Part shown: positions 30,107 through 60,151 of the stretch, piece after piece
How the letters are laid out: every line of letters starts with the position of its first letter
Position numbering within the stretch: the first letter of the stretch is position 1
NCBI GenBank assembly: GCA_017557865.1
Contig: JAFYXW010000001.1
Location: 62,001-126,000 of the forward strand
Reading direction: 5' to 3'
Length of the DNA: 64,000 nt
Source of the DNA: Candidatus Saccharimonadota bacterium
GTDB lineage: Bacteria > Patescibacteriota > Saccharimonadia > Saccharimonadales > Saccharimonadaceae
Translations under genes and position numbers: made by a program
Notes under the pieces: model-generated
What the model saw: the letters and a program-made list of their open reading frames with translations, nothing else
The model's database searches: none
Told to the model about the DNA's origin: nothing

Positions 30107-31453
30107 CTACTTTAGCATAGATTTTCGTTTGAGTAAAGAATGATAGATTATCGCAAACCGGTGTGCTTCCTCGTCGATGCGCGCGATCAAACGCGCAATG
30201 TGAGAACTATTTGATAATTCCAAATATCTCATTCCGGGGCCGCGTCGCTCGCTCCCGTCGCCACGGGGCTCGCGCGCTAATTCTCGCCTTGCCAGGCTCC
30301 GAAATGCCCCGGAATTGAGATATTCTGGAACTATCAACTTCACTCCCGCGTTGCGCGAGTGGTCGCCAGACTTGTCGCGGCCGATAACTGGAATGCCAAG
30401 ATCTTTTACGAGCGGCAAGATGGCGTTTACTTGAGTGGTACCGCCGTCCAAAATTATGAGATCTGGATATTCCCACTCGGTATGTTTTAGCCGGCGGGTG
30501 ATTACTTCTTGCATGCTTTTTAGGTCGTCGTTTGTGGACGTTCTAATTTTGAACTTGCGGTATTCAGAGCGGGCGGACGCACCGTTAATAAACACTACCA
30601 TGCTCGCCACCGTGTTGGTGCCGGATTGATGCGAAATATCATAACCCTCGATTCGGCGTGGCGGTTTTTCTAAGCCAAGCATGTTTTGTAATTGCCTCAA
30701 GGCTTGATCAGAAGAAATATCCAGAAATTCTTTATCCGAAAAAACGATTTTTTTCTTTAATTCTTTTAGACCAAACAATTGATCTCTAGCTTCGGCCGCC
30801 AGTTCGTAATTTCCCTTTGACGCCTCGTCTAGCATGGTCTTCTCGAGATCACGAAGCAACTTTTCGCGGTCTCCTTCTAGGTAGCGAATCAGCTTCTTTA
30901 GGTTTCTTTTGTAGTCTTTTGGCTCGCACTTATTTATCTCTATGCCTGGAGTTAACCCTAGATCTGTATCCAAAGTCTTTTTACCGGTATAAGGTTTGGT
31001 GTAGTACGGAAAAATGTGACGCAAAATTCTGACCGACTTCTCTACGGACGATTTTCCATAAAATGGTCCAATATAAGTAGCCTTGTCATCCACTGGATTT
31101 CTAGTAAAAGTAATATATGGAATCTCGTTATTCATATCAATCCGTACATAGCTTACGGTCTTGTCATCGCGAAGTAAAATGTTCCATTTTGGCATGTAAC
31201 GCTTAATCATTTCAGATTCCAAAAACAACGCATCCATTTCGGTATCAACCGTAATCCAATCAGTATCAGCAATTTCGGCAACCAGAGCTTTGGTCTTTGG
31301 ATCTTTTTTTGTATTGTGAAAATACTGTCTGACCCGGTTTTTTAGGACTGCCGCTTTGCCAACATAAATAATTTCGCCGGCCGCGTTTTTGTGAAAATAA
31401 ACTCCCGGGAGTGCCGGAAGTTTATTTAGTTTTTGTTTTAGAAGGTTATTCAT
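30107..31453 (-). CDS. uvrC: Excinuclease ABC subunit C, lacking the C-terminal HhH domain and carrying a palindromic insert
   Basis: 448 residues; UvrC is usually about 600. A GIY-YIG nuclease domain (LPALPGVYFHKNAAGEIIYV) starts the protein, a UVR motif follows near 210, and the RNase H-like 5' nuclease domain has GYDISHQSGTNTVASMVVF, LIILDGGTTQVNA and ARIDEEAHRFA. The protein ends soon after, without the tandem helix-hairpin-helix that binds DNA. About residues 375-405 are a GC-rich palindromic insert, in frame. TATAAT lies exactly 6 nt before the ATG. Confidence 0.93.
   Translation of the reverse strand: MNNLLKQKLNKLPALPGVYFHKNAAGEIIYVGKAAVLKNRVRQYFHNTKKDPKTKALVAEIADTDWITVDTEMDALFLESEMIKRYMPKWNILLRDDKTVSYVRIDMNNEIPYITFTRNPVDDKATYIGPFYGKSSVEKSVRILRHIFPYYTKPYTGKKTLDTDLGLTPGIEINKCEPKDYKRNLKKLIRYLEGDREKLLRDLEKTMLDEASKGNYELAAEARDQLFGLKELKKKIVFSDKEFLDISSDQALRQLQNMLGLEKPPRRIEGYDISHQSGTNTVASMVVFINGASARSEYRKFKIRTSTNDDLKSMQEVITRRLKHTEWEYPDLIILDGGTTQVNAILPLVKDLGIPVIGRDKSGDHSRNAGVKLIVPEYLNSGAFRSLARRELAREPRGDGSERRGPGMRYLELSNSSHIARLIARIDEEAHRFAIIYHSLLKRKSMLK
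30211..30337 (-). repeat. Palindromic element copy inside uvrC
   Basis: Imperfect arms of 30-32 nt (30211-30240 and 30306-30337; inner ends ATTCCGGGGC and GCCCCGGAAT) flank a 65-nt GC-rich core. On the coding strand the core reads ARRELAREPRGDGSERR. Its sequence CTCGCCTTGCCAGGCTCCG on the plus strand recurs exactly in the second obgE copy. Confidence 0.85.
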
Positions 31454-36356: not shown

Positions 36357-36798
36357 AATCTTCCCTTTCGTCTAAACGATTAATGCGCCTTACGCGGCGT
36401 TCTAAATTTGTAAAATCAGTCCCCAAAAATTTAGTAACAATATTTTTGGCTTTTTCAAAATCGGTGAAGCGCGCCGAAAGACAAAGGACGTTGGCGTCAT
36501 CGTGTTCGCGTGCGAGCACGGCGTCTTCTTCGCTACCACAATGCGCTGCCCGAATCATTTTAAAACGATTGGCCTGGATGGTAACGCCGTGTGCAGAGTC
36601 GCAAATCAAGATGCCAACCGAACCGCGGTTTTCGCGCACGTTCTTGGCTACTTTAATAGCTGGGTCGTTGAAATCATCACCTTCGCGATATTCAAAGGCG
36701 CCTTCGTCGGTAACGTCGTCGCCACGAGCTCGCAAAAAATCTACTAACTGGTTTTTTAACTCAAACCCGTGATAGTCCGCACCCACGTAGATTTCCAT
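36349..36798 (-). CDS. rpiB: Ribose-5-phosphate isomerase B
   Basis: 149 residues. RpiB landmarks: YVGADYHGFELKNQLVDFLR at the start, GILICDSAHGVTIQANRFKM (where the usual catalytic Cys region GICGTGxG is changed to ICDSAHG), and HDDANVLCLSARFT near 100. It interconverts ribose and ribulose 5-phosphates. Its start overlaps the gap stop by one base. Confidence 0.88.
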   Translation of the reverse strand: MEIYVGADYHGFELKNQLVDFLRARGDDVTDEGAFEYREGDDFNDPAIKVAKNVRENRGSVGILICDSAHGVTIQANRFKMIRAAHCGSEEDAVLAREHDDANVLCLSARFTDFEKAKNIVTKFLGTDFTNLERRVRRINRLDEREDYD

Positions 36799-37802
36799 TA
36801 TGCACCTTTCCCAAAATCGACTGTTAATTCTACCAAGCGGTTAGAATAACCCCACTCGTTGTCATACCAAGCTACAACTTTTACCATGTTGCCACCCACT
36901 ACATCGATAAGTGGCAAATCTACGATACAGGAATGTGGATCGCCGATAAAATCGCTCGATACAAGTTCTTCTTTGGTTACGCCAAGAATACCTTCGTAGT
37001 ATGGTTCCTTGGCCACTTTTTCAAATAGTTTGGTGAGTTCTTCTTTGGTTGTGTCGCGTTTTAATACTGCGGTAATATCAGAAAGCGAAACTACTGGAGT
37101 AGGTACACGTACAGAAAGGCCATTGAATTTACCTTCTAGTGACGGAATGGTCTTAGCAGCTGCCTTGGACGCACCAGTGGTGGTCGGTACGATGTTTTCG
37201 GCAGCGCTTCTAGCTTCGCGGAGGTCTTTGGCTGGAGCATCGAGAATTCTTTGTGAACCAGTGTAGGAATGCACTGTGGTCATCATGGCTTTTTCGATGC
37301 CGAATTCATTTTCTAGAACTTTCATAATTGGTGCAATACAGTTGGTGGTGCAGGATGCATTGGAAACAATTTCGTCTTTGTCGTCTACGATTTCTTCGTT
37401 TACGCCTAGTACTACAGTTTTTGCACCTTCGCCTTTGGCTGGAGCTGAAATTACAACTTTTTTCGCGCCGGCTGTGATATGCGCGCGAGCATCTTCTGGT
37501 TTAGTAAAGAAGCCGGTAGATTCGATTACTACATCCACACCGAGTTTTTTCCATGGCAAATTGGCTGGATCTTTTTCGGCATATACTGGGATTTCGCGAG
37601 TATTTACGATAATCGAGTTTTCACCAGCTTTCACATTTTTTTCGTATGTGCCATAAGATGAATCGTGTTTTAAAAGATGTGCCAAAGTTTTGGCGTCGGT
37701 AATATCATTGATAGCAACGACTTCTACGTCGCGTCTATCCAATAAAATTTTGAGAGCGTTGCGGCCGATTCTGCCAAAGCCGTTAATTGCAACTTTTACC
37801 AT
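36798..37802 (-). CDS. gap: Glyceraldehyde-3-phosphate dehydrogenase, type I
   Basis: 334 residues, normal length. NAD-binding start VKVAINGFGRIGRNALKI, active-site SNASCTTNCIAPI near 150, HSYTGSQRILDAP and the closing WYDNEWGYSNRLVEL. It is the first gene of a five-gene operon that continues with rpiB, rpe, pfkB and LOG. AGGAGG precedes the ATG, and TGCTATAAT lies in the 5' region near 37834-37842. It links triose phosphates to lower glycolysis (eno nearby). Confidence 0.97.
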   Translation of the reverse strand: MVKVAINGFGRIGRNALKILLDRRDVEVVAINDITDAKTLAHLLKHDSSYGTYEKNVKAGENSIIVNTREIPVYAEKDPANLPWKKLGVDVVIESTGFFTKPEDARAHITAGAKKVVISAPAKGEGAKTVVLGVNEEIVDDKDEIVSNASCTTNCIAPIMKVLENEFGIEKAMMTTVHSYTGSQRILDAPAKDLREARSAAENIVPTTTGASKAAAKTIPSLEGKFNGLSVRVPTPVVSLSDITAVLKRDTTKEELTKLFEKVAKEPYYEGILGVTKEELVSSDFIGDPHSCIVDLPLIDVVGGNMVKVVAWYDNEWGYSNRLVELTVDFGKGA

Positions 37803-37858
37803 TTAAAAAACCTCCTAATATACTTACGTTTATTATAGCATACTATGAATGAAAACGA

Positions 37859-37976
37859 ACAACAAAAAACTACCTTCGAGGAGTGTCCGCGACTAACGAG
37901 GAGCGGTTTAAGCGCCGGTCCGCCTGTAACGACAGGCCGGACCAAGCGTCTCCGAAAAGGTAGTTTTTGTTGTTTG
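37859..37976 (-). terminator. rpsG terminator with a palindromic element in its loop
   Basis: Arms AACAACAAAAA(A)CTACCTT... and ...AAGGTAGTTTTTGTTGTT close immediately after the rpsG stop (37977), with a T run on the minus strand. The loop (about 66 nt) is not a normal short loop but a GC-rich element related to those in obgE and mnmA; it contains the hairpin CCTGTAACGACAGG. Confidence 0.85.
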
Positions 37977-38453
37977 TTAGCGTGCAAAATGAGCAAATGC
38001 TCTGTTTGCCTCAGCCATACGATGGCAATCTTCTTTCTTCTTGAAAGCTGCACCAGTTTCGTTGTAGGCATCGACAATTTCTGCTTCAAGACGCTTTGCG
38101 TATGGCATGCCACCGCGTGCGCGAGCAGATTGTACTAACCATGAAAAGGCAAAGTGAAGTTGGCGGTGACCAGAAATTGGAAATGGAATCTGGTAGTTTG
38201 CACCACCGACACGGCGAGACTTAACTTCAAAGTCTGGAGAAACGTTAGAAATAGCTTTTTCAAGTACTTCTACTGGGTTTTCAGATTTAAGTTTCTTAGC
38301 AGCGCCTTCGATTGCAGCGTATACTGCACGTTCAGCAGCTTGCTTTTTGCCGTCGAGCATAGACTTGTTGATGAGTCTTTGCACTAGCATGGATTGATAT
38401 TTGCGATCTGGAGAAACTTTACGTTCCAAAGATTTAGTAGTTTTACGTGGCAT
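37977..38453 (-). CDS. rpsG: 30S ribosomal protein uS7
   Basis: 158 residues, normal length. Landmarks: YQSMLVQRLINKSMLDGKKQ, NVSPDFEVKSRRVGGANYQI, and MPYAKRLEAEIVDAYNETGA. It nucleates the 30S head. It starts 2 bp after rpsL (usual str-operon order), but fusA and tuf do not follow; the transcript ends at a terminator carrying a palindromic element. Confidence 0.97.
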   Translation of the reverse strand: MPRKTTKSLERKVSPDRKYQSMLVQRLINKSMLDGKKQAAERAVYAAIEGAAKKLKSENPVEVLEKAISNVSPDFEVKSRRVGGANYQIPFPISGHRQLHFAFSWLVQSARARGGMPYAKRLEAEIVDAYNETGAAFKKKEDCHRMAEANRAFAHFAR

Positions 38454-47326: not shown

Positions 47327-48772
<1,446 letters not shown>

Positions 48773-59028: not shown

Positions 59029-60151
59029 ATGCAATAATTCCGCCGCCAAGGCAGACTTCGTCGTCGTATAACACTGCGGACTGACCACTGGCAGGACGCT
59101 TGATTTCGTTTTCAAAAAATAAAGATTCGCCATTGAATTTGGCTGGGATAAGTGGAGCACGATGACGGAGGCGGACCGATACGCTCCATTCTCGACACGC
59201 TTCGTCGCGCCCGTCGTTACGGGGCTCCTCGCTAACTCGCTCCCCGTTGGTCGCGAAATGTCTCGAATGAACCGTATCGGTCCGTATGAATACGTCGCGA
59301 AGCTCCAATTTGTCTGTCCAAATGTGAGAATCGTTTAAGTTTTTGGAAACGTAAACAATATTCTTGTCGAGGTTTTTGTCCACGACATAATACGGCAAAC
59401 CATCGTTTACCTCGCCGGAAATACCAGACAGATAGAGTCCGTGGCGTTGGCCGATAGTATAAAAGATAGCGCCTTCATGGTAGCCTAGCACTTTCTCGGT
59501 CTCCACCTCGCGGATTTCACCGGGTTTAATATCTATATATTCTTTCAAAAAATCTTTCATCCCTACTTCGCCCACAAAACATACACCCATGGATTCTTTT
59601 TTGTAGGCATTATGAAGGCCTTTTTCTTCGGCTAGCTTTTTTACGTCTGGTTTTAACATATCGCCAATTGGGAAAAGGGTATGTTTTAAAGATTCATTAG
59701 AAATTCTGTAAAGAAAATAGGTTTGGTCTTTATTCTCATCGACCGCTCGCAAGAGCTGGCCGTCTTTCACCCTAGCATAATGGCCGGTGGCAATATAATC
59801 TGCGCCACGCTCCATTGCTTTTTCAAAGAAGAGTTTAAATTTAATCTCTTGGTTGCACATCACGTCCGGATTTGGAGTGTTTCCCTTTTTAAACTCATCA
59901 AGCATATATTCCACGACTTTTTCGCGGTAGGCATCTTCAAAATCCCAAACTTCAAATGGAATGCCGAGCTTTACGGCTACACGCTTAGCATCGGCAAGGT
60001 CCTCTGCCCAAGGACATCTCATACCCGGCAGGTCTTTGGACCAGTTTTTCATATAAACACCAGTTACGTCATAGCCCTGTTCTTTTAAAAGCAAAGCCGA
60101 AACAGACGAATCCACCCCGCCACTCATACCGACAAAAACTTTTTTACCCAT
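59027..60151 (-). CDS. mnmA: tRNA-specific 2-thiouridylase MnmA, with a palindromic insert
   Basis: 374 residues. The PP-loop (VGMSGGVDSSVSALLLKEQG), catalytic cysteines (NPDVMCNQEIKF and MGVCFVGEVGM) and GQRHGLYLSG are intact. It thiolates U34 of tRNA with sulfur from the adjacent cysteine desulfurase. About 29 residues in the C-terminal barrel (ATNGERVSEEPRNDGRDEA) come from a palindromic element in frame. The start at 60151 is supported by the PP-loop position. It overlaps iscS by 8 bp. Confidence 0.95.
   Translation of the reverse strand: MGKKVFVGMSGGVDSSVSALLLKEQGYDVTGVYMKNWSKDLPGMRCPWAEDLADAKRVAVKLGIPFEVWDFEDAYREKVVEYMLDEFKKGNTPNPDVMCNQEIKFKLFFEKAMERGADYIATGHYARVKDGQLLRAVDENKDQTYFLYRISNESLKHTLFPIGDMLKPDVKKLAEEKGLHNAYKKESMGVCFVGEVGMKDFLKEYIDIKPGEIREVETEKVLGYHEGAIFYTIGQRHGLYLSGISGEVNDGLPYYVVDKNLDKNIVYVSKNLNDSHIWTDKLELRDVFIRTDTVHSRHFATNGERVSEEPRNDGRDEACREWSVSVRLRHRAPLIPAKFNGESLFFENEIKRPASGQSAVLYDDEVCLGGGIIA
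59172..59284 (-). repeat. Palindromic element copy inside mnmA
   Basis: 26-nt arms (59172-59197 and 59259-59284, a few mismatches) flank a 61-nt core. Start-to-start distance is 87 nt, 29 codons. The core holds the hairpin CCCGTCGTTACGGG. Confidence 0.88.

Follow-up and report, generated by a model that had tools for sequence, protein, structure and literature searches.

A short palindromic element as the loop of a putative rpsG terminator and as an in-frame insert in a genus of Saccharibacteria

Why would a stem that looks like the terminator of rpsG close on a 66-nt loop with structure of its own, and which is older, the stem or what it encloses? The question is raised by the spacer between rpsG and gap in the stretch of DNA analysed here (64,000 nt, hereafter the window), which is part of a 694-kb genome in 24 contigs (G000). 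The host, a Saccharibacterium from the ruminant gut, belongs to the same genus as Candidatus Nanosyncoccus alces; the uvrC matches of the window are named Saccharibacteria, many of them from the ruminant gut, with Candidatus Nanosyncoccus alces among them. Short palindromic repeats that reside in frame in protein genes and in the spacers of one genus are known as Rickettsia palindromic elements (RPE), and REP/BIME sequences are short palindromes in many copies whose RAYT proteins are Y1 transposases. Literature searches aimed at Saccharibacteria and the Candidate Phyla Radiation gave no report of the family described here. We consider it moderately probable, as one joint explanation, that the rpsG hairpin is an intrinsic terminator whose loop is a palindromic element, non-coding and about 65-90 nt long, and that template switching (or recombination) extends and corrects the arms and flips the cores. 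The family to which it belongs occupies long hairpins at their tips, both in terminators and as in-frame inserts in variable protein regions. About 100 related genomes supply natural filled, empty and flipped alleles of the one element family. A long-standing puzzle, the spread of small palindromes in the absence of a transposase, thereby becomes directly testable, as does template switching as a builder and keeper of hairpins. The family also points to a route by which, in the reduced genomes of Saccharibacteria, terminators may come to large structured loops and proteins to in-frame linkers. The relatives known by name are nearly all metagenome assemblies, and the sites and genomes compared are not independent of each other.

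The rpsG hairpin and its repeat family

On the rpsG strand the stem begins at the stop codon and has T6 at its end, the T run itself being paired. The inner arms (37865-37883 and 37950-37968) are 19 nt long and 84% complementary with a spacer of 66 nt, and the outer arms (37854-37868 and 37964-37978) are 15 nt long and 93% complementary. For a 136-nt stretch the predicted fold reaches -57.5 kcal/mol (z -6.0) on the rpsG strand and -63.6 kcal/mol (z -7.5) on the opposite one, and none of 200 dinucleotide shuffles was as stable in either case. The original prediction had taken the outer arms for a terminator stem with a T run, and the inverted repeats, stable folds and T6 agree with a terminator-like stem, the whole of which spans 37854-37978 (Table 1). 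The 66 nt between its arms are far from the short loop of an ordinary intrinsic terminator, and a terminator scan restricted to loops of 3-8 made no call there. An Rfam 15 scan of the window matched two tRNAs only, with no known structured RNA family at the element, and a known Rfam RNA was rejected on these grounds.

Table 1. Positions in the window of the rpsG-gap hairpin, its parts and neighbours, and of further copies of the family
Feature	Position	Strand	Basis and remarks
Whole hairpin	37854-37978		Terminator-like stem 3' of rpsG, loop replaced by the element; inverted repeats and folds
Arm distal to rpsG, locus-specific	37854-37883	-	3' stem half on the rpsG strand, including T6
Arm proximal to rpsG, locus-specific	37950-37978	-	Overlaps the rpsG stop codon
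Mobile core (CCGCGACTAACGAGGAGCGG... subtype)	37880-37953	+	95% identical to the C12:5750 copy; model R1 match 37887-37950, 58.6 bits
Core hairpin A	37887-37906	+	Predicted fold
Core hairpin B, tip CCTGTAACGACAGG	about 37912-37949	+	Predicted fold and consensus pairs
rpsG (S7), upstream gene	37977-38453	-	ORF of 158 aa; name recognised from sequence and earlier note
gap (glyceraldehyde-3-phosphate dehydrogenase), downstream gene	36798-37802	-	ORF of 334 aa; function recognised from sequence
uvrC coding copy	30238-30301	-	In frame, own arms; model match 77.3 bits
obgE copy, C-terminal part	48415-48478	-	In frame; model match 76.8 bits
Second, weaker obgE copy	47661-47723	+	Model match 33.1 bits; 26-nt arms 47634-47659 and 47721-47746, 92% complementary
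Copy in 403-aa open frame (L030)	59196-59256	-	Model match 42.5 bits; arms 59172-59197 and 59259-59284

The loop is, as had been proposed, a member of a repeat family. In the same genome it is 95% identical over 95 nt to a copy at C12:5750, between what we take to be rnpA-like and rpmH-like sequence, and 87% identical over 54 nt to a copy at C19:7022, which lies in frame within a presumably RNA-methyltransferase-like gene. A covariance model built from seven copies, which we used for searches of the genome, the genus and the phylum, also matches it. The innermost stem, GAGGAG/CTCC, is common to the rpsG and C12 copies and hence is part of the element. In the predicted fold the core consists of two hairpins on a short closing stem, and adding the outer arms produces a Y-shaped three-way junction. 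The earlier reading of hairpin structure inside the loop therefore stands, with two hairpins in place of one.

The model finds 16 copies in the window's own genome. They are mostly within genes: 11 lie inside open frames of 258-818 aa, with at least 42 aa of frame on either side, and three of the five intergenic copies have at least five T at the arm (run lengths by eye). The family is found in either orientation, and the copies in uvrC, obgE and further places form another subtype than those at rpsG, C12 and C19. At least one copy is present in 90 of 99 genomes of the genus. A draw of 379 genomes from the phylum gave four with a match, three of them members of the genus and one from the same family; outside the genus this amounts to 1 of 376, under strict filters that may lose weak matches.

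Two minor observations may be added. Besides the two different copies of the family in obgE of the window, further hairpin-like inserts occur in the C-terminal region of this gene elsewhere (L094, L110, L111). In L003, L013, L016 and L093 the tip of core hairpin B carries a nested mini-hairpin unit, CCCCTTGGGACGCG; in L015 the related unit belongs to core hairpin A.

Filled and empty sites in terminators and genes

We compared 81 regions 3' of rpsG (the window and 80 relatives). The model found a core in 12 of them, and L105 has a related core, visible by eye, that the model missed. These cores are in either orientation and of either subtype, mostly between AACAAAAAATACCTT / AAGGTATTTTTTGTT-type arms. 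Of the other 69 regions, 32 gave a call in a simple scan for hairpins with a short loop and a T run; by inspection, 15 of these calls are ordinary terminators, in 11 the hairpin covers the gap promoter region and 6 lie within larger hairpins. Core-free plain terminators are found after rpsG in further species, L112, L122, L130 and L165 among them, with GGGGTATTTTT(T)GTTGC as the 3' half in L112 and L130. In L135, the same ATACCTTT/AAAGGTATTTTTT arms enclose a short loop and no core.

The cleanest filled and empty terminators are found at G118:C2:281748, where G118 reads ...AAAAAGTACC[element]GGTGGTAATTTTTTG... and G046 has an ordinary short-loop terminator, AAAAATGCACCGAAAGGTGCATTTTTTG, with flanks 87-90% identical between the two. 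The terminator stem can therefore exist without the element, which sits within its loop. Insertion into a pre-existing loop is thus supported at terminators. The original prediction had held the terminator to be older than the element, and both the G046/G118 pair and the core-free rpsG terminators of other species argue for that order. It had also named the contrary case, in which the arms occur only together with the core; L135, with its arms around a short loop, speaks against it.

Other hairpins were seen in the rpsG-gap spacer. In L113, L116, L117, L149, L150 and L159 the terminator holds a different, larger nested hairpin family (CACGTCATACGCTGG...CGTCAGGAATATACGTG). Another nested family, in L107, L148, L151 and L166, looks wrapped around an innermost hairpin that resembles a terminator; in three of these four the innermost hairpin is AAAAAATCTCC...GGAGATTTTTT. 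In 11 species (L108, L110, L115, L125, L132, L133, L137, L140, L146, L155 and L161) a hairpin with T6 lies directly before the gap ribosome-binding site and includes a TATAAT-like box, an overlap of promoter and stem.

Within genes the element is likewise absent from orthologs. Among 52 uvrC alleles 11 are filled, 1 is degenerate and 40 are empty, and the reading frame is intact in all 11 filled alleles. The self-complementarity of the flanks has a median of 13.6 in filled (n = 11) and 6.0 in empty alleles (n = 40; p = 1.7e-5, uncorrected for kinship). The empty alleles, of which 39 of 40 were used, are close to random places in the same gene (medians 6.0 vs 5.8), and 18% of them exceed the 95th percentile of the same-gene background. 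All 11 filled alleles have the flank residues [RH]N[AV], but so do 10 of the 41 alleles without an intact element, which weakens the view that the right flank was copied over the left one. At the uvrC site of L105, a complete element is succeeded by an older, second one of which the right half is present, as if two alleles had been fused within the hairpin.

A second coding site lies in a gene that we take to be TlyA-like. Here G157 is filled with a 120-nt hairpin, and G055 and G161, which are 90-95% identical to G157 around the insertion, have 15 other nucleotides and neither arm. At the two clean filled/empty sites (this one and G046/G118), whose flanks are rewritten, a direct duplication of the target is not evident by eye.

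These sites bear on the strongest rival, namely that the element everywhere enters only pre-existing stem-loops, with arms that in every case predate the core. It agrees with the plain terminators at orthologous positions and with the occupation of the rpsG terminator by several families across species. Within genes it can point to the uvrC of L167, which has 9-bp arms without a core, and to the empty TlyA-like site of G055, which could fold into a weak hairpin around the insertion point (-3.4 kcal/mol). However, empty uvrC alleles are near background complementarity and G055 and G161 lack the arms that flank the coding copy of G157, so that coding arms appear to arrive with or after the element. 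We therefore regard entry into existing hairpins at all sites as unlikely. The preference for hairpin tips that had been proposed at the outset agrees with the terminators (G046/G118) but, in that form, is not supported for the coding genes. For the coding copies the comparisons favour the other possibility raised then, that the target becomes a hairpin, and the higher flank complementarity of filled uvrC alleles fits it better.

Arms, inversions and turnover

We scored the pairing of left and right flank within each copy against 2000 mismatched pairings of unrelated copies. The 79 copies tested comprise 41 model matches, from the window together with 80 fetched stretches, and 40 further loci, less L053 and L054, which had wrong flank coordinates. 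A copy's own arms pair above the 99th percentile of mismatched pairings in 55 of the 79 copies, some of which are orthologous and hence not independent, and the median score is 15.8 within copies vs 2.5 for mismatched pairings. Most copies are flanked by inverted arms that vary from site to site, only the innermost few base pairs being common. In 14 ortholog comparisons, some of which share a site, we followed 490 arm pairs: 17 fell in gaps and 49 had changed, of which 33 were still paired, 10 through a change in each arm, and 16 were broken. The broken pairs suggest that arm correction is slow or partial, and 16 of 490 weakens the idea that pairing is perfectly maintained.

The core is also inverted in place. 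In four close species (G046, G118, G153 and G155; 90-93% identical) seven sites have the same core in at least two species, and four of these occur in both orientations: obg, G118:C2:185560, a site at about 34.7k of the window and G046:C3:40156. The remaining three are rpsG, G118:C2:181592 and G118:C4:96675. At G118:C2:185560 a 118-nt unit that takes in the arms is inverted between G118 and G153 at 98.3% identity, and its flanks align directly at 92-93%. The rpsG core has opposite orientations in the window and in its nearest relative, G169. No inversion was seen at three shared sites in the trio G055, G161 and G157. As putative traces of template switching, the inversions are the stronger and arm correction the weaker.

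Occupants also change between relatives. At G157:C2:3383, G157:C2:11722, and G153:C11:5230 and 8615, relatives hold other families or subtypes with other arms, which suggests hot spots with changing occupants. Such sites lend themselves to another explanation, in which hairpins and arms together are alleles moved between species by short-tract homologous recombination at fixed hot spots and new insertions are rare. It would account for the different occupants of one site as well as repeated insertion does, and it agrees with the locally raised divergence, since some of these sites lie next to sequence that diverges more than the remaining gene. It does not sit well with similar cores in unrelated genes with unrelated arms, or with the clean filled and empty sites, and as a general account we find it quite improbable.

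Proposed mechanism and comparison with known systems

In the explanation that we favour, the core would enter an already existing loop at terminators, and at coding sites the flanks would become complementary upon insertion or later. A DNA polymerase that switches template from one inverted arm to the other (or recombination between the two) would lengthen and correct the arms and flip the cores, which would allow a selfish core to retain its own hairpin. Turnover is probably also fed by recombination that exchanges short alleles between species. At rpsG, termination may have been retained because the stem and T run were retained. Template switching at inverted repeats is reported to homogenise arms and invert spacers (PMC8604942), and to act at imperfect inverted repeats, coding sequence included (PMC8604942, PMC8794818). 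A bolder version, possible though rather doubtful, is that of a transposase-free selfish core that owes its spread to errors of replication at hairpin tips, builds or extends and maintains its arms by template switching and flips in place, so that one mutational engine would underlie terminator hairpins and in-frame inserts across the genus.

A transposase-moved element of the classical MITE or REP-like type, with terminal repeats that do not vary, would likewise be short, palindromic, multicopy and almost restricted to one genus. However, the arms are site-specific beyond the innermost few base pairs, and a MITE with constant ends was rejected for this reason. Of the 99 genus genomes, 3 have Y1 transposases (PF01797), G000 not being one of them, and a REP/RAYT system was rejected given this near absence; unlike REP/BIME sequences, the copies of our genome are also mostly intragenic. 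Reverse transcriptase genes (one or more) occur in 60 of the 99 genomes and none was found in the window's own. Grouping the 99 genomes by their presence gave median copy numbers of 8 and 9 (p = 0.79), and an element driven by reverse transcriptase was rejected for lack of a link between the two. Neither enzyme class thus yielded a dedicated enzyme for the element. Taken together, we regard a transposase-moved element of the MITE or REP kind as very improbable. A functional regulatory RNA or conserved terminator design under selection, which could draw on the strong fold and on the preservation of the rpsG stem and T run in many species, is hardly credible for a family that occurs in both orientations, has 11 of its 16 own-genome copies in reading frames and is missing from many orthologs.

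The family has partial parallels elsewhere. Mitochondrial double-hairpin elements are also small double-hairpin units, described as mobile, and differ in being organellar; they are not known to have site-specific long arms. RPE resemble our family in their in-frame residence in protein genes, seen here in 11 of 16 own-genome copies and in the 11 of 11 filled uvrC alleles that remain open. The Saccharibacteria family differs from them in its site-specific long arms, its in-place core flips and its terminator-loop hosts. We call it RPE-like by described features. RPE lose repeat identity over time, as cited in PMC6649704. That paper describes coding palindromes of nematomorph mitochondria, in which the arms of intragenic inverted repeats stay complementary, with repeat conversion or template switching proposed as the cause; its abstract and discussion report no mobile core there, whereas the Saccharibacteria hairpins share one at the tip. 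Template-switch repeats are reported to show arm homogenisation and spacer inversion (PMC8604942, PMC8794818), and inversion of the spacer between the same arms is what we find at four of the seven sites in G046, G118, G153 and G155. The inverted spacers listed in one section of PMC8604942 measure 2-5 bp, whereas here the inverted spacer is a family member of about 65-100 nt.
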